Shown one piece after another: positions 10,732 through 63,082 of a stretch of 64,000 nucleotides of DNA. Numbering within the stretch: position 1 is the stretch's first letter; every line of letters begins with the position of its first letter. A program made the translations under genes and the position numbers. Under the pieces are notes generated by a model that was not told the DNA's origin, made no database searches, and worked only from the letters and a program-made list of their open reading frames with translations. Source of the DNA: Hypomesus transpacificus (taxonomy: Eukaryota > Chordata > Actinopteri > Osmeriformes > Osmeridae); the NCBI RefSeq assembly GCF_021917145.1, contig NC_061066.1, positions 558,001 through 622,000 of the forward strand, in the 5' to 3' direction.

Positions 10732-10813
<82 letters not shown>

Positions 10814-11111
10814 TCTCTCTCTCTCTCTCCCTCTCTCTCTCTTTGTCTCTCTCTCTCATGACAGTGGTAGATCATACAGTGCAGGCGCAGGGGCGCATGT
10901 GATGTGTTTCCTAGACGATAGGTGGCGATGTTAAGTTTTCCGAGAATTCTGCGTCATCACCATCCAGGAAGTACGATGTTTGGTCATGTGTTTTTTAGTG
11001 TATCGCTCGCAAGCTGTCAGGTGACTAAGACCTTGTTTATTTTCTACTAATTCGATATGTTATTTTATCCCTTTTGAATGGCTCGTATGAAATGGATTAC
11101 CAAGGAGAACC
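10494..11111. promoter_or_regulatory. Divergent dram1/gnptab promoter region
   Basis: The two start codons lie about 618 bp apart, head to head, so this interval must hold both 5' UTRs and promoters. There is no TATA box. Visible candidate sites: a CRE/ATF-like TGCGTCATCA near 10950, an ETS-like AGGAAGT near 10966, and GTCAGGTGAC at 11016-11025. The last differs by one base from the TFEB CLEAR consensus GTCACGTGAC. A long CT microsatellite occupies the middle. Site function is inferred. Confidence 0.6.
10731..10858. repeat. (CT)n microsatellite in divergent promoter
   Basis: About 128 bp of near-pure CT/TC dinucleotide; the first ~75 bp is uninterrupted and later units are broken by G or C. 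It sits between dram1 and gnptab and could affect nucleosome positioning or length polymorphism. Open frames through it (runs of Ser-Leu) are artefacts. Confidence 0.95.
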
Positions 11112-23021
<11,910 letters not shown>

Positions 23022-24401: not shown

Positions 24402-26155
24402 AAAACCTTTTCACTCACTTTTGTTAGTACAAAGGTGTATTACTGTATAGTGTTGAACAGTGCAATACCATGTTATGGTTGAGCATGTGGACCTCTAATG
24501 CATAGTTCCATAGTTAACCAGCTGGAAAACCCCTGATTGAACAGAAACATCAAGTTAGTGTCAGTTACAGTCACTCAGCAACCTTACATCACCTGAAAGC
24601 TCTTATTTAGCATTCTACCTTCATTATCTGCATCCAAACAAAATGACCTTTTAGGGCATGGATCACTACTATATGCATGTTTAAGACAGAGGTGATTCAT
24701 TTTGTATATTTGATCATTTAAGCCTCCATTATTACATGGGGTTTTGACCACCATTTCTCCCAAATGTATCCCTTTCTGTATCCTAATGTTAAACACAGAT
24801 TTAATTTCAATGTTATGTTCTGTCATCCTTCAAGAAACAGAGCCATTATGTATGTTTGATATCGGAAAACTGTTCCAATCATGGTATCATTATTATCACA
24901 AATCATTGAGGTTCAAGTACCAAATGCATTCACCTGTACATTGTATAAATGTGTTTGTATAAATGTTAAATGAGAAACAGACAGATTCCAGTCAAGAGTT
25001 ATGTCTAGTTAACGGTAAAACATATTCCAGTAGTCCTATGTCTTAGCTTGGGTATCTTGCATGATACTTAAATTACAGTTATAAAACACTGATCCATAAG
25101 TAAAGTTTTCTGCATAAACTACAGAAAATTTAAACAAAAAGACAGTGTTTATCAACTTCTCTCACCAAACATCCGCACAGAAATTTAAAATAAAACAATT
25201 AAAAAATAAACTTTAAGGCTTCAAACTAAATTCTGTACAATCACATATAATTATGTAGCCCTTTAGGGAGGAAAACAAAGAGAGCGTATGATCTTGTGTT
25301 AACACATCATCTCCAACAGACAAAACTCCACATGGACTTGGATGGATGGGAAACTAAGATTCCAGAGTGATTTGCAAAATACACGTTTTATGTAGTGTTT
25401 GTACACTTTAAACAGTTAGAGGAGTTGTAGTGTAGCCATAATGGTTAGATGGAGGAACCCTGTAAAAGCTTTGTCATTGTTGAGCCAGTGTTAACACAGA
25501 CCCTCGCCCCTGCAGTCCTTGACAGATGTAGAGCTGACCACATGGAACTGAACAAAAGTTAGTCCACATTACAAATTTCATTGGAAATGATCAGAGGTTT
25601 AAAAAGTAAATTTTGGGAGAATTTTCTAGCCCTGATTTCAGTTGCTGCAACTTTTGATTGAATAACCCTATAAATAAATTCTAATGATTCACACATTTTA
25701 AGGAGGTACTAGGTCTATGCAAATTGTGGGCAAGTATCAAACAGTATAACACAATCTAGATCTGTATAAAAGCAACTAAAAGGCTTTTTTAGAAGGAGAT
25801 ATGTACTTATACTGCATAAAAGAAAGGTTATCAAGTGTAGTCAACATACCAATTGAACTATAACAGGCCAATAAACAATGCAGCATAGGCTACATTTGAT
25901 ATATTTACCCAGACTTACAACTAGTACCTCATGCTAGCAAGCAATACTTTTGTCTCTAAATTGAATAAGCTGGAGATGGAAACTCTGCCTTTTAGATGTT
26001 CAAGAAAACAGAACTGTCTTCTTTAATGAAGACATACATTTCAAGTTGACATTCTAAGATCTTCCAAATTGGCTCTGATAGTGAAAACGACCTACGTCAT
26101 CAAAGACGAAAGGAACCCAAGACCCGCTTGGTTTTTCATCCTCCTGCCCGTGCTG

Positions 26156-26306
26156 CCTATACTACCTCTACATAGTGCTGCAGTCTGGCAGTGGGCGTGG
26201 TCAGCAGGAGTAGGGTTAGGGTTAGCCTAACCCTAACCCTAACCCTAACCCTATACTACCTCTACATAGTGCTGCAGTCTGGCAGTGGGCGTGGTCAGCA
26301 GGAGTA
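26156..26306. repeat. Interstitial telomere-repeat insertion with 57-bp direct flanks
   Basis: A 57-bp segment starting CCTATACTACCTCTACAT (26156-26212) is repeated exactly at 26250-26306. Between the copies are 37 bp made only of telomeric repeat: two GGGTTA units plus G, then, in reverse orientation, about four CCTAAC units. So the telomere repeats meet head to head, bounded by a perfect duplication of unique sequence. It lies in the chpt1 3' UTR. The pattern is directly visible; an origin in repair of a staggered break is inference. Confidence 0.95.
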
Positions 26307-26464
26307 CCCTTCATCTAAACCACGGCTGGTCGTCTTCCTTTCACAACTCTTGTATGTGGGACAGACTTTAGTTAGAGGTGGTCACTGTATCAAGATTGCT
26401 GCAGTTTTGGATCGAGGGGCTGTCGTCGTCGTCTGCTTTCAGGAGCGGGGTGGCATCGGCCTGC

Positions 26465-26532: not shown

Positions 26533-29236
26533 TCAGTCGTGGTGGCTGTGGCCCTGCGGTGCAATGCTGAACACGCTGATGCGCAGGTGTGAGGCGATCT
26601 GGAGGCAGACGCCTGTGCAGTAGCGTGTCAGGTCCAACAGAGACAAGACCTGAGGAAGCACAACAGAGAGAGATGACTCACCAGGGCACATATGTCCACT
26701 GTTTAACCAACACTCTAGACTTGATATATAGAATATGATCTATAATATCTCATTATTATATATATTATATAATATCTAATCATATATAATATTGTAAATG
26801 CAGTACTATTGTTATTATGTTACTTAGGTTGGTTATCAGTGCTGAATTGTGGGAATCTGTGAATCCCACTGTAACAGGGCTATACAAATACATTTTTATT
26901 TTATTACATTGTTATTGTAATATTGTTACTGCATTAGCCGACAGATTGACAGCCACTGACAGCCTATTCGGAGGGTACTCACCATTGCAACCCACAAGAC
27001 TATGTACTCATCAATGAAGCTGTTAAAGTACTGGTTAAGGAAAAGAAGGCCAGGCCCGATAAAGGCTGTGTCTGGGAGATACAGCTCACTCTTGGTCATG
27101 TGAGCAACCTGCATATAGGAAGAGAACATTCTGAGGAACGTTGACGTACCCCTATAACTGGATTACAATACTGCGAGATAGTGACATTTAAATAAAAAGA
27201 GAACCAATAGGAAACTTTGTCTCTGTGTTCTCGTTGAAGACGTTTATCCATAAGTAACAGTTTTTCATCCATTTGTGCACCCACCACCAGTTTGTTGGAG
27301 ATCTTGGCGATGACCATGCCGAAGGTGAGGATGTAGAGGCAAGGGTGCAACTGAAACAGCTGGGTAGAGGACTTCTTGAAGATGATGAAAGCCAAGGTGA
27401 GGATGAGGCCAATGTGCATGCCTGGGGTCAGTACACTGGTGTCCTGCACAAGATGGTAGAGCACAGAAACCATGCTGTATAAAATCAGTACATCGATCTT
27501 TGCAAAGATATTACAATGCAATGTGGAACTCAGAACTCAAAAGTCAGGGAATGTATCATTTTTTGTTGTTGTATTCTAATGAGTTTGATGACATCAGAAT
27601 ATACTTTGACTTACGGCAACAGTTGAGCCATTTTTGCCCACGCCCCCATTCAATATGACATAGAAGTAGTTATAGGTGGACAACAAGAATCCACCGATGA
27701 TGCCTATGATGGGAAAGGCACTAAGCTTCAAACCCACGACAGGCAACTGAGGAGAAAAAGAAAATAAATAGTCAAGTTCGTGGAAATCTATCAACTTGTG
27801 TCCAGTAGCACTCCACAAGCTCTCTTTATACTGAAAGCTGCAGGCATGCCGAGCATGATGGGAAGAGAAGCCAAAGAAGCGGGTGACATCAGCTGTCTGA
27901 GCCAGATCATGGCCATGAGTGACCTGTTGCCATGAGGATAGCTACCCATAGTTACCTTCTCACTTCTCATTTGACGTTTAGTCAAGCCTCCACGGGCAGC
28001 CAGAGTAAAAGTAAAACAGAATTGCTATTTAATGACTATTAGGGTGATTGTGAGTTGGCTGACAGGTACTTTGTACACTGTTGTCACACAGTAACTGATT
28101 GGGTTTGGTTTCAGTTGTCACAGTCTAAGATACTGATCTAAAGCTAAAGGTTTAGTTTTGTGGTCCTTTCTTCTACAAAAGGTGTAGCACTATAAGACTT
28201 GTACTTCACTAACCTCAGAATGGATCTTCTATAAAGTGACTGGAGCACTAAACTGTTCTGGTACACAGATAACTACACATATCTCCAGTTCAAGACTCGC
28301 CCTTGCCATTTTGAAATGGGGGGAAAAAAGTATGTCACAAAGTTGGCTCCCCCTTATGCCAGATTTGCAGAGCTGTTATCCCAGTTTGTAGGACAGTCTG
28401 GGGCATTGAGACTAGAGGTTAGAGTCTGTATTAGAACCCTAAAGCCAAGAAAACAGAGAAAACAGTATGTATGACTGAATGTTTGGAGTATTTGCACATG
28501 CGTGTTTAAATCATACCCTGTTGTCCCAAAGGCCCACTCCACCAAAAGCTGACATCAGATACATGACAATGATGGAAATCTGGACCTCTGTAACATCAAC
28601 CCTGCATGAGGACAGTGAAAGATACTTAAAAGGAAGATTCAGACCAGTTGTAAGAAAGCAATGAGGAAATGTAAGTTGCTTTGGATGGAACATATAAAAC
28701 GTAGACTTATTACACAACTCACAAGCCAAAACGGAGAGTTCCAGAAACATAGGTCTGCCACTGGGCACAGAAGAACATGAACATCCCAACGAAACCGCAG
28801 AAGAACATCCAGTCTGGATACATTCCTATCCCACAGGATATACATGTTCCCACGGCAACAAACACTGTAATGAGAGTACACAAAATGTAACTATCACAAG
28901 TGAATTCAAATCACATGACAGATTGACACTAACTAAAGTAGTATAAAAGCGATTTGCTAAATGGAGTCAGATGGCTTAGCGGTGAGGGAGTTGGGCTAGT
29001 AATCAGAAGGTTGCCGGATCGATTCCCCGCCGTGCCACATGATTTGTGTCCTTGGGCAAGGCACTTCACCCTACTTGCCTCGGGGGGAATGTCCCTGTAC
29101 TTACTGTAAGTCGCTCTGGGTAAGAGCGTCTGCTAAATGACTAAAATGTAAATGTAAAATGAATAAGTCACTGATCTGTAAATTTGCACTACTGCACTGT
29201 ACTCCATTTAGGTTAGATTAGTTTATAGGGTTGTAA

Positions 29237-29288
<52 letters not shown>

Positions 29289-31583
29289 TATTAGGGTTAG
29301 TATAGCGTACTATTTATTGTTATCTGTAATTTAGGAAGTTTTAGTGTTAGGGTTAGTATAGTCGTTTATTTATTGCTATCTGTATATTTAGGAAGTTCAC
29401 TTATCTAAGCTCAGCATAGATGTAAATTTGTTCTGTGTACTTATATGTTATGTTATGCCAAGTGCTTGCGTTGTCTTGTCTTAAGAATTTCAGTGCCCAG
29501 TCTAACCTTGTGTTGCTCTGTGCACCTGACAAATAAAAGACTTGAACTTGAACTTGAACTTGAACTTGAATAAATCTAAACGTAATCCTAGTTGTGTACA
29601 ACATTTTGGTCATACAACGTGCTGACAAAACAGCAAGGCCTACCACACCTGTAGAGACAGCGTCACAGCCATGGTCAAACAACTCTCCCAAAGGTGAGCT
29701 GCTGTTGGTCCTCCTGGCCTGTTTCCCATCGATCGCATCCAGAGACTGATAGATGAACAGTCCCAGTGCACTGAGGAAGAACGCCCATGCTGGAGCCTGG
29801 TAAAAAAGACAGGGGAAGAGGGGGTGAAGGACGAGAGATGAGTCGAGGCAAGGACAATCTGTTTCCTTGAAAATATTGTTTTTTCTTTCAGAGCACAGAT
29901 GAAAGTAGAAATCATGTAATCTTCATTGCAGGATGCGGCTGTTGTGTCAGTAAAATCCTCTTTTTTTCCTAAGAAAGGGCCATCAGAGTTAGCTGAATGC
30001 TCGTGCCCAGTAAGGATCCCATACTTTACAAACTACTAAAGAGTATCCTATCATAATGCATGGGACCCCACACACAAGAACAGCGTAAAAAACATTGGGG
30101 GCACCACTTGTGTGTTGTACACTTAGTCACACAAGCCAAATCATTCCATATTAGGTTAACTCCTCTGAGGCTATGGCAGTGTGATCTGAACAACTGTTGT
30201 TGCATTTGTGTCATGCTAGACCAAGTGCCTGTAAAGTGTAGTAAAATGGCAAAAGTGGCAAGATTGCAAGTGTGTGTGTGTGTGTGTGCACTAAGACCAA
30301 AATAGTAAGACCAAAATGTCAAAAGAACAGGGCATTTCCAGAGATTTGACTTTTAGCAGCCATCTGCCCACCAAGAGCAAGCCAATACTCTGCTTGTCTC
30401 TCCACAAGACACTGTTTCAACACTATAGGCTAGGTGTGTGTAGGTGCATGCATGTGTAAAACAAACTAGAATAACAAGATGCTCTGCTCTTTCCCCTCAT
30501 TCTGTGTCTCTCAGCCATGCCCTGTGTTATGACCATGGTAAAATGCTTGTAAATGATAATTGATTGTGAACAACCATTAAGCTGTACTTTCACATAAGTG
30601 TCCTTTTGGACATAGTCCAACAGTTTTTGGTCTTATCCTTATGTTTGCCAAGTAGGCAGTCGTCCCTAATCTTACCATTGACTGCTCTGACTTGTAGCAT
30701 ATCACCTACACAGGGTAATTATGGGTCATCAGTACAGTGGTTGCTCACTTAATCAGACCCAAGTAGGCTATGGCATAACAAGCAAAAACCTTTCAATCTT
30801 TTTGCAATCTGGACTTTGTCAGGGTTAAGGTTCTAATCTATACTGAAGCATACGGGCTAAGGCATTCTGCAAGTCTGATAACCTGAATGCCTCTGTTAAA
30901 GAATGAATGCATGCACCACACACACACACAAATGGGCCTACTCAGTATGGCAACACTAAGTCTCTATTGATGCCAGATAAATGGAACCTAGAGTCATCAA
31001 CGTAATCAACGTGGCAATATCTTACTCGAACTGATTCTGACTGAGATAATGGGTTGAAAGCTGACTGCACACCATTGATCCAAAGTTCAAAGCTCGAGTT
31101 TTGTTTCCTATTAACAAACATCCGTCGTTTTGTACACTAAATTATTAAGTAGCCAATTTACTTCTGTCTATAAACCATTTGTCAAAATTACTGTGGTTCC
31201 TACAAACAAATGAATGACTGACCTAAAACGTGCTTAAATATAAGCAGACACTGGTTCCAGGTGTATCGTGGTATCAATTGTTACAACTACACATAGGACA
31301 GAGACATTATATCAGAAAGTTTCCCAAGGTCGCCGTCACTTACCTCTTCTGTTGCCGACGGGCAGTAATACACTAGCACTACAGTTGTGACAATATTCAC
31401 AACGAGTCCAATTATAGTCAGCGTATTCGGTGCGATCGTGGTTGGAATTTGTTGGACCAGCCAATTCCAGTATACTTGACACGCTGGTTCGAAAAGGGAT
31501 CGGCCGGAGGCGCTGTATTTATGCTCTTCTAGTCGCTTGAGTTGTGCGACTGACAGCGGCTCTGGACACAAGAAATGTGGCAT
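26533..31583 (-). CDS. chpt1: Cholinephosphotransferase 1, complete, 8 exons
   Basis: CHPT1 joins CDP-choline to diacylglycerol, the last step of the Kennedy pathway to phosphatidylcholine, in Golgi membranes. Minus-strand exons in order: 31583-31344, 29796-29649, 28864-28723, 28601-28517, 27746-27615, 27443-27285, 27108-26983, 26649-26533; all phases agree and give 382 aa (human 406; the N-terminus and tail are shorter here). Exon 2 carries the CDP-alcohol phosphotransferase signature DGx2ARx8Gx3Dx3D (DGKQARR...GELFDHGCD, residues about 97-119). About ten hydrophobic segments follow. Conserved blocks include [36 protein letters not shown] and [18 protein letters not shown]1 is the nearest alternative, but synteny and the N-terminus favour chpt1. 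The ATG at 31583 gives [24 protein letters not shown], aligned with the family start. Confidence 0.93.
28965..29156 (+). mobile_element. tRNA-derived SINE in chpt1 intron 2
   Basis: The 5' part resembles a tRNA gene: an A-box-like TGGCTTAGCGG near 28972 and a B-box-like GGTTGCCGGATCGATTCC at 29009-29026. The body then runs GGGCAAGGCACTTCACCCTA, and the tail is GTAAGTCGCTCTGGGTAAGA followed by GCGTCTGCTAAATGA. That tail is common in teleost SINEs. It is inserted opposite to chpt1 transcription. There is no CCA-adjacent acceptor stem, so it is not a tRNA gene. Confidence 0.85.
29160..29572 (+). mobile_element. Poly(T) tract and LINE-like 3' remnant with (CTTGAA)n tail
   Basis: A 47-nt poly(T) run (29241-29287) is followed by a duplicated segment of about 55 bp (29288-29344 and 29345-29402, both with TTAGGGTTAGTATAG and TTTAGGAAGTT). 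The stretch ends GACAAATAAAAGACTTGAAC with five CTTGAA units at 29541-29570. The AATAAA-plus-microsatellite ending is typical of 3' ends of fish non-LTR retrotransposons. No reverse transcriptase frame remains. It lies next to the SINE in chpt1 intron 2. Confidence 0.7.
30266..30291. repeat. (GT)n microsatellite
   Basis: Short GT run in chpt1 intron 1. The rest of that intron (29797-31343) shows no exon or intact repeat. Confidence 0.85.
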
Positions 31584-32040
31584 TGTTTTTAGCCTCTGTG
31601 CTCCAAAAAGTACCCCCCAGCGATACTCCTAACTTTCTTCTGTCTCTCCGGATTTAATATTTGCTTGTCTCCAGACAGAAAACGGTTGTTCATTTGACAT
31701 TTAAGAGTGAACGGTTATTTTTCAACCATGAGTTGTAAATACCCTCTCCGTTCATCGAAAATTGCTTTTCAGCAGGAAGCCAAGGCCCGGAAGAGAATGT
31801 AACCGGGAGATTCAAATGCGATGTATTCCTACCACCGCTATGTGCGCAATTTCCAAACATTTAGAAAAACAAAACACATCGGCTGTCAGTAGTTACGAGT
31901 TCACCATCGACAGCTTCGTAAACACCTACTAAAATAATAGGCTATGATTTTCCAACACAATTCTGAAAATATCAAATGGCTTAAGGGAATGTTAATTGTT
32001 ATTTAATGACGTCACAAAAAAAGAAAAATCTCAATCTTTC
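31584..32040 (-). promoter_or_regulatory. chpt1: chpt1 promoter and mybpc1-chpt1 spacer (inferred)
   Basis: About 450 bp between the chpt1 ATG and the distal mybpc1 polyadenylation signal. No TATA box at a convincing distance; GC content is raised only near the start codon. Start-site position is not determinable by eye. Confidence 0.4.
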
Positions 32041-47900: not shown

Positions 47901-50900
47901 ATAGTGGTACAGTAAGGTTAACAGAGAGATCTTACGAGGCAGCTCAATAGAGAGTTTCTTGAGTGAATAGGCATCCTCTGTGAAGAAAGCACATTATTAT
48001 TTATATTAATGGAAGTGTTTTACTGTCCTTAATGGTTCATCTATTTTGATCACTCTGATATAAGGATGACACCCCGAAATTGAATTGAAAAATTGAAAAA
48101 AAAATTGGTTAAAAAGATTTTATGAGAGGATTCAAATTTTACAACCTAATTAGATAACCTATGTACTAGTATAATAAGACAAAACAGGTTTTAGACAATA
48201 TAAAAGATTTCATGTATAATATTTACACATAACATATGCATATACATGATGAGCATACATACATACAGTACATGTATTGGTATTATATCATAATACATAC
48301 ATGTCAGATGTGATCATGTGACACATCCATACCTTTATTTGACATAATAAATAAAGGTTTATGTGCTTTTAGAAACTGTGCTTAGGAATTTTTGACACTG
48401 CACATAGATGGCAAATAGATTACATGTATGTCTGTGACATACACATACATACATTTAGTCATTTTTAGTCATTTAGAATACATACACTATAATAGTTTAA
48501 GATCTATTCTTCTATAAAAAAAAATATATAAAAAACGTGTTGCTTGTGTCAAGTTGAGGGACCCATCACCGTTGTTGAAAAATGTCCATAGTTTTTTATC
48601 GTCTTGGACTGTTGTTCATAGAAGCCCAAAACAGAAACCGTTCAAGAGTCTCCAATCCATGGTAACCATCATCAAGAGGAGAATAAGACCTAATGAGGGT
48701 GGTTGTTATGGTTACCAACCTGCTGGGGGCGTTGGGGAGGGGGTACTGGCTGCAGCATCATCATCTTTATCTGCAATAAAGGTGTGATTGATACACAGAC
48801 CCACCTATGAAAAAGCTCCAAGTCCATCACGGGCAGGCCAGCAAAACATGCCACAAGACCAGACTGGTCATGCAAGACAAGACAGAATTCAGGACAAAAA
48901 ATGGACATCATTGAAATGGACAGATGGAGTTTAAGATACATGATCAATGAGATTGAAAAGTGTTGGAGGAGAACACACCTGTGTGTTTGGGATGAGACAA
49001 TGGTATGAGATCACACATGTGTAGTGATTTATGCTTGACACCACAAGCCTGTTGATAAACTATAGTACCACACCAGTGACTATGAACTAAAGTACCACAC
49101 CAGTGATTGTGAACTAAAGTACCACACCAGTGATTGTGAACTAAAGTACCACAACAGTGACTATGAACTAAAGTACCACACTAGTGATTGTGAACTAAAG
49201 TACCACACCAGTGATTGTGAACTAAAGTACCACACCAGTGACGGTGAGATTAAGTACCACACCAGTGATTGTGAACTAAAGTACCACACCAGTGACGGTG
49301 AGATTAAGTCACCATGCGAAAAACAACCAGAAGACAAATCCCCCAAAACAGAGGCTTTCATTTCAAGTAACCCTGTCAACGGTCTGAGTTATATCCTTTG
49401 CATAACACCAACAAAACATTGAAAGACGCAGACAACAATGCAACAACATGAAGCCAGTGAGAGATATTTCTACTCTTATTGAGCAATACAACGAAACTAC
49501 ATCAAAAAAACTATATTAAATAACTGAGTATGGACATAACATGAAACCTGCCTTTTGCTTTCTGAAAAACAGGAAGTGACACTGATAACTAGGTCGAGAT
49601 ATGACCTTGCATGTGGCAGGTGTCAGGCGGTTGGCTGTGTGCTTGTTTTTTTTCAACTGCGTAAAACACAGATCCTCACCTATTGTCTATGAGAGGTACA
49701 GCACTTGAAAGTAATTCTGCACAGAACACACAGGCACAGACACACAGACACTCAAACAAACATAGGCAGACAAAATACACTTGCGCACAGAAAGCACACA
49801 CACATACAGTATTCACACACACACACACAACAACACACGTCACATCCAGTCCCAGACCTGCTGGAGGTGGAGGTGGAGGTGTGGTAACAACTATAACTGG
49901 CTCTGCTTTCTCCATCTCAGCAGGACGGGGTGGGGCTGATTGGGACAAGGCTGTCATAAATGAAACCCACCTTCCACCCATGCAGTAGCCTATCACATCC
50001 ACTCAAGAAGAATCTCAGCCAATCAGCACTGCCTTTTAGAAATGTTTCCTTAGACACTGAAACGTATAAATCCATGTTCAGTATGAAGCCATTGTACTGA
50101 TTTCCTACTGTTGACTTACGAACTTAAAATTGTTTAACCTGTATAAGTGCATTTTAGGAGGGGCTTTTCACCAAAGAGAACAGGTTATAAAAGCAGATAG
50201 CAAAGCATGAACCAATGTATGGCCCAATCAAAGAATATCAATTAAGTCCATTGCATTGGGTCATATAGCAGCCCTGGAAGCAAACAAGATAACATTGTCT
50301 ATAATTACAGATAACGTTTTCAACCAAAGACACCCTGAAATAGTGAAGCATCAATCTATTACTTGATGTTTTTATTCTCTGACAGAAGATACATGTTGAC
50401 TTTCTCAAAGAGATACTGATTGTTCTGGCTACCAATGAAAGGTGGACTCCACTGCAGTCAGACAGGGTATTTGAATGAAAGCGCTACTTGAGTTAACTAA
50501 AAGAGCAGTAAACAGCGAGAGTTACGACTGTAAAAGGCTAGAGACTGAGTGTTCCAGTACTTACCAGGCGGTGGGGGGGAGCAAGGGGCCTCCTCCTTAA
50601 CTTCAGGCTCGACTTGCTCTTTAACCCCAACAGCTACGGGCTCTGGGTCTGTAGAGCCATTCTCTACTGGCTCAGGCTCCTTAGCCACCACCACCTCTAC
50701 CGGAACAGGCTCTACGGGGTCTGGCTCCTTCCCCTCAGTTTCTACTGGCTCTGCCTCCGCTACAGCCTCTGTACAGCAAACACAGCGCCTAGCTGGAGCA
50801 GCAGGCTTTGGGCAAAAGCAATGGACCAAAGCCTCGCGGAACACTGCCTTATTTGAGACGTGCATAGATCGCTAGTGACCACATTGGTTTGATTCACTGA

Positions 50901-59331: not shown

Positions 59332-60622
59332 TTATAAAGTTTCAATCTTGTAAGCATTTGTGCTTGAATGTTTTCCGTGGCACATCCTCAAGGCACTCAG
59401 TGTGTCTCTGCTGAACTGGTAGGTGAGCTTCTTCTTAACTTTAAATATCTCTCCAGAACGCCTATAGTTCCTCAAAGCCCTGCACATCTTCTGGTATGTC
59501 ATAAGCCTTCTGTTTCCTTTCCTCTGGCCCCAAAGTGCTGCTACCTGGTCCTTGTACTTTGAGGAAAAGCTGAAGACCCCTGAGGCCTCTGGCACCCAGG
59601 AAACACAATGGGCCATGTCTGGATCTTCGAGCATCTCAAACAGGAAGTGAAACAATCGTACCTTTCTACCTGTAAGTCACCATGGTGATTGTGGTTAGTA
59701 GATAAAGTACAGAGGATCAGTTAATCATTCCCCCACATCAGTCATTTGGGAGATGCTTTGTTATGACTGTGCCACATAGCAGTAAATTGTAACGTTTCCA
59801 AACTATTGGTTATCAGACATATGTAAAACATAGGGCCCCAAAGGTTTAGTACTGAATGGCATCATTGTGTTTTACAGTAAAGGGTAGGTCTGTTATTTAT
59901 TATTTAAGTGTTGTTCACTTACTACCCGCTATCTCCAATGACAGTATGCCGATCTAGTAACCCACAAAAGGAGAACTCACCTCTCATAGCAGGTTCAGTG
60001 TGGCATGTGGACGATTTCCATTTAAACACAGAGTTTGGAGCCGACCGAAGCTCAGATAATGTGACAGTTGTTTGGTTTAATGTTGCGGTGTTACATTTTG
60101 ATTGTGTTGGTTGGAGGTCAGCTTTATCACCCTGAACAGGATAACAGATAAAGTAATCAGAGAACAGATGTACAATATGAAAATGAAAATCATTAAACAA
60201 CATGTATTGTTACATGTATTACAACATGTAATGTTGTTCCCCACATAAATCGCTGTAAAATGAAGTATAATCCTTCCTACAGTTACCTCATATGTCAATC
60301 CTGATTCACTTCCATTACGTTCCTTCACAGGCAGAGGTGTGGACCAAACACAGTTCTCTTCCACTGCAATTTAACATGAACATTTGACAGTGGGTTTGTA
60401 CCCTGTCATTTTATCTGAATCCTATAAATTTAACTTTGGAAAGGACCAACCTCTTTCACTACCGACTCCAGTGTTCTGCCTGTAGTACTCTTCCAGAAAC
60501 TCGAAGATAACCTCCAAATCGGTCTGATTTTCCTGGAAAGAGTTCTGGTAAAGATGCAATAATGAGCAGCAAACCCACTTAAACTCTCCACAGTTTTGTT
60601 GTAAGGATTGATCTGTATGCAT
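59332..60622 (-). CDS. Spi-subfamily ETS transcription factor, diverged spic paralogue
   Basis: A probable DNA-binding factor of the PU.1/Spi-B/Spi-C class. Minus-strand exons: 60622-60451, 60363-60287, 60131-59981, 59669-59332; phases agree and give about 245 aa, close to human SPIC (248). The C-terminal ETS domain starts about residue 134 (GRKVRLFHFLFEMLEDPDM), continues [31 protein letters not shown] and ALRNYRRSGEIFKVKKK, and ends LTYQF. The recognition-helix arginines (RALRNY) are kept. It is more diverged from SPIC than the neighbouring copy (GNRRLMTYQKMCR against [13 protein letters not shown]). The N-terminal half, rich in Asn/Thr/Glu (QENQTDLEVIFEFLEEYY), is not recognisable by itself. 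The start is uncertain: ATG 60622 is the first in-frame ATG below a TATA box (60782-60787), but a hidden short first exon is possible. It may be the gene called spi2 in zebrafish; I cannot confirm this. Confidence 0.82.
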
Positions 60623-61438: not shown

Positions 61439-63082
61439 TTACACCTTGGTGACACTGCGTGACAAGAAGCCAGTGCCTAGATCACAGTCTACCTGGTGGG
61501 GGAAGTGTCCGTACCCGCTCGGCCACTCAGGTGCTACAGAACCGGGATAGTAGCCCTGCTCAAGTGGGGCATGTTGCTGCTGGTGGTGGTGGTGGTAATG
61601 GAGGTGCATGTCTCGTCCAATGTGCCCAGAGGGATGTCCAGGGGTGTGTGTGTTTCCAAGCCTTTGGAGGATCATAGGATTGAACTGGTAAGTGAGTTTG
61701 CGCCGCACTTTCACAATCTCGCCAGTGCGACTATAGTTGCGTAGTGCCCGTGCCATCTTCTGATAGGTCATGGTCTTGCGGTTACCCTTGCGCTGTCCCC
61801 AGCACTCTGCTAGCTTCTCCTTGTTCTTGGAGATGAAGTGGAAGGTTCCACTGCCATGATCGGTCCACTGGATGGAGTCCACCATGTTGGTGTCATGAAG
61901 TGCTTCATGTAGGTATTCATAAAGACGGAGCTTTTTACGACCTGGTGAAGTGTGGATCTGAGCTTATTATTAATGTAAACATACTGTAGATACTGTACAT
62001 GAAAATAAACGGAAAATTCTGCATCATTTCAGTTAGATTTAAAGTGTTTTTTGCACAAATTGTTAAGAGGGATGAAGATAACCTGCTTACCTTTCCCAGT
62101 TCTCAGTGGGGGCAAGATGGAGTACATCTGTGCAGACTCCACCATCACAGAGGGACTCAGCGAAACATCGGGGACTACGTGAGTCAGATGGTTCACATCC
62201 ATGTGATACTGTAGGACACACACACTTTAATTTAAACAGCATTGCACACTTCACAAGTGGTCACATTTTTTGAAGTGTGCACCTTTTCTCAATACTTACA
62301 GTTGTCTGATACCAGTCATAATGTAAGTCAGAGGAATGTGTGATTGGGTATTCGGTGATACTCTGACGAACAGTAGACTGTGACGCCTCGTAGTACTTAA
62401 ACTCTAAATAGAAAGAAATATTTCGCTTAAGTTTGTCATTTGTAATTTAAAGATCAAATTACATTTAGTGTACGCTATACTGTGTACTGTATAACACAAA
62501 TAATATACCATTGAGTATGGTAATTCAGGTTTCAATTACGCATCCCTAAATCAGATGATAAATTATTGTGTGCGTATAATAATATAATATTAATAGTGAT
62601 TGTTATGTTTTATTTGATCTAGTCTTAATTTATTCAGGAAAAATGTGTTTGTTTTTCCAATGAAGACCAAAGAACAGCTACAAAATTACATAGAAAATAC
62701 TGTATTAAATGTATGTGTAAATGTACCTGGATCATCATATGGATTGCTGGAGTGCCTTTGAATCACATCAATTGCATCCTGGAAGTGTTGGTTGATGTCG
62801 TTGTCCAAGGAGCTCTAGAAGTGCATAATAGTTTGAATGTAAGTGAATGAACTTAAATGTACTTAATTTCAGAAAATACCATACAGTACAGTGGGTGTAA
62901 GTACCTTACATAAATGTTTTTTATTCTATTTGCCGATACGAATAATTGCGAAAATATGCACACATATTGAAGTTATATTCTTGTGGTGAAAATAAGATGT
63001 ATTATTCTTCTAAGAAATCAACATGCTTCATTAAACTTCATATCGTAAAAATCGTATCCGCACAACTCACCATCTTATGCAT
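61439..63082 (-). CDS. spic: Spi-C ETS transcription factor, complete, 5 exons
   Basis: Spi-C is a PU.1-related ETS factor; in mammals it drives red-pulp and iron-recycling macrophage fates. Minus-strand exons: 63082-63071, 62814-62727, 62403-62300, 62208-62091, 61941-61439; phases agree, 274 aa. The first exon encodes only MHKM. Exon 2 ([20 protein letters not shown]) matches the SPIC N-terminal block (FEDAFEVLRQHS in human). The ETS domain starts at about residue 108 ([20 protein letters not shown]), then [55 protein letters not shown] and LTYQFNP. The C-terminal tail has an [12 protein letters not shown] stretch and is longer than in human SPIC. Position next to mybpc1 matches the human SPIC locus. 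The frame stays open upstream of the ATG, but a TATA box at about 63182-63190 puts initiation between, so ATG 63082 is preferred. Confidence 0.92.

Follow-up and report, generated by a model that had tools for sequence, protein, structure and literature searches.

Inward-facing telomeric repeats between exact direct copies of a 57-bp unit beside the chpt1 coding region of Hypomesus transpacificus: a probable scar of a staggered break

Beside the last coding exon of chpt1 in Hypomesus transpacificus lies a short interstitial telomeric sequence (ITS), a type of locus recognized as a scar of double-strand break repair. It consists of 37 bp of telomeric DNA that switches orientation internally and is enclosed by two identical direct copies of a 57-bp unit. 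We propose that the locus is probably the scar of a staggered break at which telomerase extended both 3′ ends, after which the ends were filled in and joined. The window, meaning the whole stretch of DNA analyzed here, comprises 64,000 nucleotides (NC_061066.1, positions 558,001 to 622,000), and all coordinates refer to it.

Results

The two copies agree at 57 of 57 positions, and their likeness ends immediately at both sides. Deleting either 57-bp unit yields the identical single-copy sequence, which is compatible with insertion in one step but is no proof of it. The insert between them occupies 26213–26249, is telomeric throughout without a mismatch, and exactly fills the space between the copies. 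It reads GGGTTAGGGTTAG and then CCTAACCCTAACCCTAACCCTAAC, which is CCTAAC four times, and thus has the inward order, TTAGGG followed by CCCTAA. The two arms meet at GGTTAG/CCTAAC, with no overlap between their repeats. An exact 57-bp duplication flanking 37 bp of orientation-switching telomeric DNA had been described in an earlier note on this sequence, and that description is confirmed to the base. The features are as follows.

26156–26212, plus strand: copy 1 of the direct duplication, an exact repeat of 26250–26306
26211–26212, plus strand: flank bases TA, in register with the left arm; likely telomerase priming end
26213–26225, G-strand on plus: left telomeric arm, 13 nt, GGGTTAGGGTTAG, ending in GGTTAG
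26226–26249, minus strand: right telomeric arm, 24 nt, GTTAGGGTTAGGGTTAGGGTTAGG as the minus-strand read
26250–26253, minus strand: flank bases CCTA (TAGG on minus), in register with the right arm; likely telomerase priming end
26250–26306, plus strand: copy 2 of the direct duplication, an exact repeat of 26156–26212
26533–26535, minus strand: chpt1 stop codon TGA; the last coding exon part is 26533–26649, with its splice edge placed by eye
26022–26027, minus strand: ATTAAA, a possible polyadenylation signal by sequence match, 505 nt past the stop codon

The edge bases, TA at one end and CCTA at the other, belong equally to flank and repeat, which leaves a true duplication length of 51–57 bp. 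When these in-register flank bases are counted, the G-rich arm measures 15 bp (26211–26225), the C-rich arm 28 bp (26226–26253), and the telomeric total 43 bp. The larger arm alone amounts to 4.7 units and passes the four-unit search rule given in the available text of PMC2246262. The locus carries the marks of a short ITS, namely exact TTAGGG repeats at an internal site, here inside a 64-kb gene region, and in-register bases at the break ends, which are frequent though not universal in the class and number two and four here. The direct copies that flank the array, identical at 57 of 57 positions, place it among short ITSs with a target duplication.

A chance origin is excluded for the telomere run as well as for the 57-bp repeat. 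A 28-bp telomere run is expected 10^-11.3 times per 64 kb (first-order Markov estimate), and the corresponding value for a chance 57-mer repeat is 10^-24 (independent-base estimate). The window contains a single other exact telomere run of at least 11 bp, which is 11 bp long (29346–29356). Exact direct-repeat pairs of at least 25 bp number 67 in the window, and 56 of these are of low complexity, defined as 12 or fewer distinct trimers. The remaining 11 are the 57-bp pair itself and 10 pairs within a 27-bp minisatellite at 49058–49295, one of which, at 58 bp, exceeds the 57-bp pair in length. When all 90 13-mer words of the 57-bp unit were tested against both strands, none was found in the rest of the window, and the unit was rejected as a repeat family for lack of any further match of this length within the window. 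An exact 29-base piece of the unit gave 0 matches in viral_contigs and genome_contigs, collections of viruses and prokaryotes in which such a result says little.

Several other repeats were observed in the window. The stretch 29283–29397, which directly follows a T run and is flanked by stretches resembling chpt1 exons, holds a 56-bp unit twice, 88% alike, with TTAGGGTTAG within each copy. We set it aside as a second site of the same kind: its telomere-like run is 11 bp long and points in one direction, and its telomere-like bases lie inside the duplicated unit, whereas those of the main locus lie between the copies. The 27-bp minisatellite at 49058–49295 has 8.8 copies; its unit length is divisible by 3 and so keeps open a repeated YHTSDCELK frame, which is probably not a gene. 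A CT microsatellite of 125 bp is located at 10733–10857.

The structure spans 227–377 nt past the stop codon of chpt1, which is encoded on the minus strand. The ATTAAA at 505 nt past the stop would put the insert within the 3′ UTR, and the insert is probably located there. The same placement was made in the earlier note, and it gains support from the stop codon and from this putative signal, both of which are read from the sequence. The identity of the gene is indicated by its first exon region (minus strand, 31290–31628), which matches the solved CHPT1 8ero with E = 3.1e-32 and, more weakly, CEPT1 8gyw with E = 4.6e-28. This minus-strand cholinephosphotransferase gene also carries a CDP-alcohol phosphatidyltransferase domain in Pfam, in which six of the seven window stretches submitted obtained a family match. 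A plus-strand gene at 18000–19772, with LNR/Notch and DMAP1-binding domains (Pfam), is presumably gnptab, and a minus-strand gene with immunoglobulin and tri-helix-bundle domains (Pfam) is one that we take to be mybpc1. The order gnptab, chpt1, mybpc1 is, we assume, the vertebrate neighborhood. Two Ets-domain stretches (Pfam) on the minus strand, 59332–59676 and 61439–61963, lie about 1.8 kb apart and presumably represent a local pair of SPI-like genes. A UnaL2 LINE 3′ element occurs on the plus strand at 29093–29146 (Rfam RF00436, 61.7 bits), followed by a TGTAAA-type tail. The gene order and this LINE fit vertebrate nuclear DNA, most likely that of a fish.

The significance of the in-register bases was estimated by a test that was devised post hoc, with the locus already known. 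Staggered cuts of 40–75 bp were placed at random in the window with a random repeat phase (200,000 trials); trials starting within 26001–26399 were skipped, yet retained in the denominator. At least two in-register bases on the left occurred in a fraction of 0.0617 of the random cuts, and at least four on the right in 0.0033. Both conditions together were found in 0.00021 of the cuts, and a sum of left and right of at least six in 0.0012. The test does not tell telomerase priming and microhomology-mediated capture apart. The register at this locus agrees with the available surveys of rodents and primates (PMC2246262) and of the horse (PMC7215372), in which in-register bases mark ITS insertion sites: at least one such base was reported at 67–80% of the rodent and primate loci and at 31 of 40 horse loci, in each case against an expectation of 25% or less.

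The consequences at the RNA level were considered as well. On the chpt1 sense (minus) strand, 26226–26253 contains four GGG runs with TTA spacers, followed by their complement. Four-run G motifs are found three times on the minus strand of the window, this locus being one of them, and four times on the plus strand. As RNA, a 163-nt stretch has a predicted folding energy of −67.8 kcal/mol (z = −2.24 relative to 200 shuffled sequences, 4 of which were as good), with a 14-bp telomeric hairpin at the core of the predicted fold; this fold of the 163-nt RNA showed no quadruplexes. The GGG runs could give rise to a hairpin or a quadruplex in the chpt1 transcript. The local consequence of the insertion is that the chpt1 sense strand has gained four GGG runs beside their complement, likely in the 3′ UTR. 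The structure as a whole probably has no selected function.

Discussion

We infer a single repair event, presumably in the germ line. Opposite-strand nicks about 57 nt apart would have produced a staggered double-strand break whose overhangs were most likely 3′. If the plus-strand nick fell at the right end of the unit and the minus-strand nick at its left end, the unit would become a 3′ overhang on both sides. The plus-strand end, ...GGAGTA, whose final TA is in register, may then have been extended by telomerase for 13 nt, stopping at GGTTAG, and the minus-strand end, ...TATAGG, with TAGG in register, for 24 nt. Fill-in of the C-strand would also copy each overhang and would leave the 57-bp unit on both sides, and joining of the filled-in ends would create the GGTTAG/CCTAAC junction.

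The orientation of the arms is an important part of the argument. Telomerase lengthens only 3′ ends, so two ends extended at one break must read TTAGGG and then CCCTAA, as observed. By our reasoning, two fragments captured at random would show this inward order in one of four cases. The in-register bases at both ends, together with the inward orientation, favor telomerase extension over capture. The earlier note had suggested a staggered break filled in and "capped or captured" with telomere DNA; the staggered break with telomere DNA stands as the best-supported reading, and the undecided second part can be narrowed in favor of telomerase at both ends.

Capture is the main rival explanation, and we regard it as rather unlikely. 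In this view, fill-in of a staggered break was followed by end joining to an inverted telomeric fragment, which would stem from a telomere–telomere fusion, or to two fragments, or to TERRA-derived cDNAs. It accounts for the duplication just as well, and microhomology-mediated capture also leaves in-register bases. In the available text of PMC10762111, it is considered that ALT-type inward fusions might arise by the fusing of small DNA fragments, and capture of TERRA cDNA is suggested for some ITSs in PMC7215372. However, capture calls either for a pair of fragments that were joined in one particular arrangement out of four, or for a 37-bp piece spanning a fusion point, and it leaves the register of the bases at both ends as an extra coincidence. 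Furthermore, the insert holds no telomere-variant or subtelomeric base.

The end points of the arms bear on telomerase extension in both directions. Human telomerase ends its repeat at GGTTAG, as stated in the available text of PMC8589416, and the left arm ends at this very stop. The right arm continues one G, a single base, beyond the usual stop, which counts against the telomerase reading. A further point against it comes from the available text of PMC7215372, which reports no telomeric insert among about 350,000 I-SceI junctions of cultured cells, so telomerase addition at breaks is rare at best.

By analogy, 3′ overhangs are most likely the starting structure, since telomerase needs a 3′ end and since, in the available data of PMC5730883 from mouse ES cells, tandem duplications made up 80.9% of the wild-type mutant products at breaks with 46-nt 3′ overhangs and 16.3% of those at 5′-overhang breaks. 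In the same source, mutagenic repair after 3′-overhang breaks is described as relatively infrequent. Its authors picture the 3′-overhang duplications as one overhang extended on the other and not as separate fill-in, a route that differs from the one proposed here. If 5′ overhangs were filled in before telomerase acted, an identical sequence would be left; neither the length of the duplication nor its sequence discriminates between the two polarities, and a choice from the sequence alone is impossible.

It is a more tentative idea, and a doubtful one at present, that telomerase routinely, albeit infrequently, assists end joining at long staggered breaks in the germ line. If the idea is true, loci composed of a direct copy, an inward telomere pair and a direct copy would form a class recognizable genome-wide, and such loci would record the telomerase priming and stopping points at both ends of a natural break.

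An assembly or library artefact, whether from a misjoined repeat or from a read that is chimeric or folded back on itself, appears improbable. Fold-back structures are known among long-read artefacts. However, a fold-back read gives inverted flanks, and those seen here are direct copies without a single mismatch. By eye, the insert does not resemble an adaptor, and the sequence runs on normally on both sides.

An origin in two steps, in which telomeric DNA later entered the exact junction of an already existing 57-bp tandem duplication, is very improbable. Staggered breaks commonly yield small tandem duplications, according to the available part of PMC5730883, and the first step would be an ordinary one. 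The second step, however, needs a break exactly at the junction with no base lost, and a single event covers both.

A retroelement or transposon with a telomeric-repeat body and a long target-site duplication is hardly credible and was rejected: the UnaL2 LINE 3′ end lies 2.8 kb away, and a LINE reverse transcriptase may have been available, but the space between the copies holds no element sequence, no poly-A or other tail, and zero non-telomeric bases. An ITS derived from telomerase RNA (TERC-ITS) was likewise rejected, as 37 of the 37 inserted bases are telomeric and leave no room for TERC sequence; Rfam gave no match to a telomerase RNA in the window at the gathering threshold. A fusion ITS left by a chromosome fusion was also rejected. 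Although the repeats face each other, the direct local 57-bp copies place both flanks at one site, and the arms are only 13 and 24 nt long.

The identity of the copies had been taken in the earlier note as a sign of a recent event, an age that the data bound only weakly. If neutral rates between 1e-8 and 2e-9 per site per year are assumed, the zero differences between the copies correspond to a 95% upper limit of 2.6–13.1 My, or 2.0–9.9 My with the pure insert counted. With its direct copies, the locus would also be expected to revert readily to one copy.

The interest of the locus comes from its simplicity. The head-to-head ITSs that we found described in print, as far as the available texts go, contain additional TERC sequence or are rearranged. 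From a locus composed of a direct duplication and two arms alone, one can read off break ends, priming bases and stopping points alike. Its order of direct repeat, inward telomere pair and direct repeat can also serve as a signature for searches across many genomes. This signature can test the two-telomerase idea, as the inward order is demanded by telomerase and not by capture.

Comparison with Known Systems

The closest relatives are the ITSs with direct target duplications. In the available parts of the surveys, these account for 6 of 130 rodent and 4 of 25 primate informative ITS loci (PMC2246262; Nergadze 2007) and for 3 of 66 horse loci (PMC7215372; 2020), where they are credited to staggered breaks; two more horse loci combine a duplication with a deletion and an addition. 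The present locus shares with this class a pure short array, a direct target duplication and in-register bases. It differs in the head-to-head array between the direct copies, a feature that the available text does not describe for that class, and in that the empty site was demonstrated for the published loci, while the present locus is known from one sequence.

Head-to-head arrays occur in 3 of 41 TERC-ITSs (two in the mouse lemur and one in Xenopus), for which the available text of PMC8537989 proposes a second telomerase on the opposite break end. These arrays resemble the present one in having two facing telomeric stretches at one break. Unlike the TERC-ITSs, with their TERC-derived sequence as described there, the locus has no non-telomeric insert and has a direct duplication. 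A complex horse ITS (PMC7215372, Figure 4a) likewise combines head-to-head stretches with a duplicated flank. As presented there, however, it includes a 286-bp inversion and inverted duplications of 38 and 53 bp, whereas a single direct duplication is found here.

The inward repeat order is also shared with fusion ITSs, including human 2q13, the human chromosome 9 pair and ALT tumor fusions, as far as PMC7215372 and PMC10762111 describe them. In contrast to these fusions, no chromosome ends are needed here, and the direct duplication assigns the flanks to one locus. The chromosome 9 inward pair is described in PMC10762111 as an endogenous fusion fixed in the population, with the junction TTAA; depending on its flanks, it could be of the present kind.

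In tumors, 98% of telomere insertions are reported as one-sided. For the two-sided ones, the authors' options, in the available text, are one bridging telomeric piece or separate additions to both ends; bridging reads were obtained for 14 of 25, and the remainder were too long to tell. Compared with these, the present locus is short enough to be resolved in full, and it does not consist of one bridging array with a single direction.

No locus that combines direct duplication and head-to-head array, free of any other insert, was found in the literature searched, which covered main texts, mostly from journals readable without subscription. The rarity suggested by the earlier note therefore holds for the combination and not for the parts, as direct-duplication ITSs and head-to-head ITSs have each been published. 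The parts are known, and their combination, a direct duplication with an inward array and no other DNA, seems unusual. Beyond the ITSs, the duplication itself resembles the paired-nick duplications of mouse ES cells (PMC5730883), in which the segment between the nicks is duplicated at a similar size (46-nt overhangs). The available account of those events describes no telomeric DNA between the copies, in contrast to the present locus, where telomeric DNA separates them.
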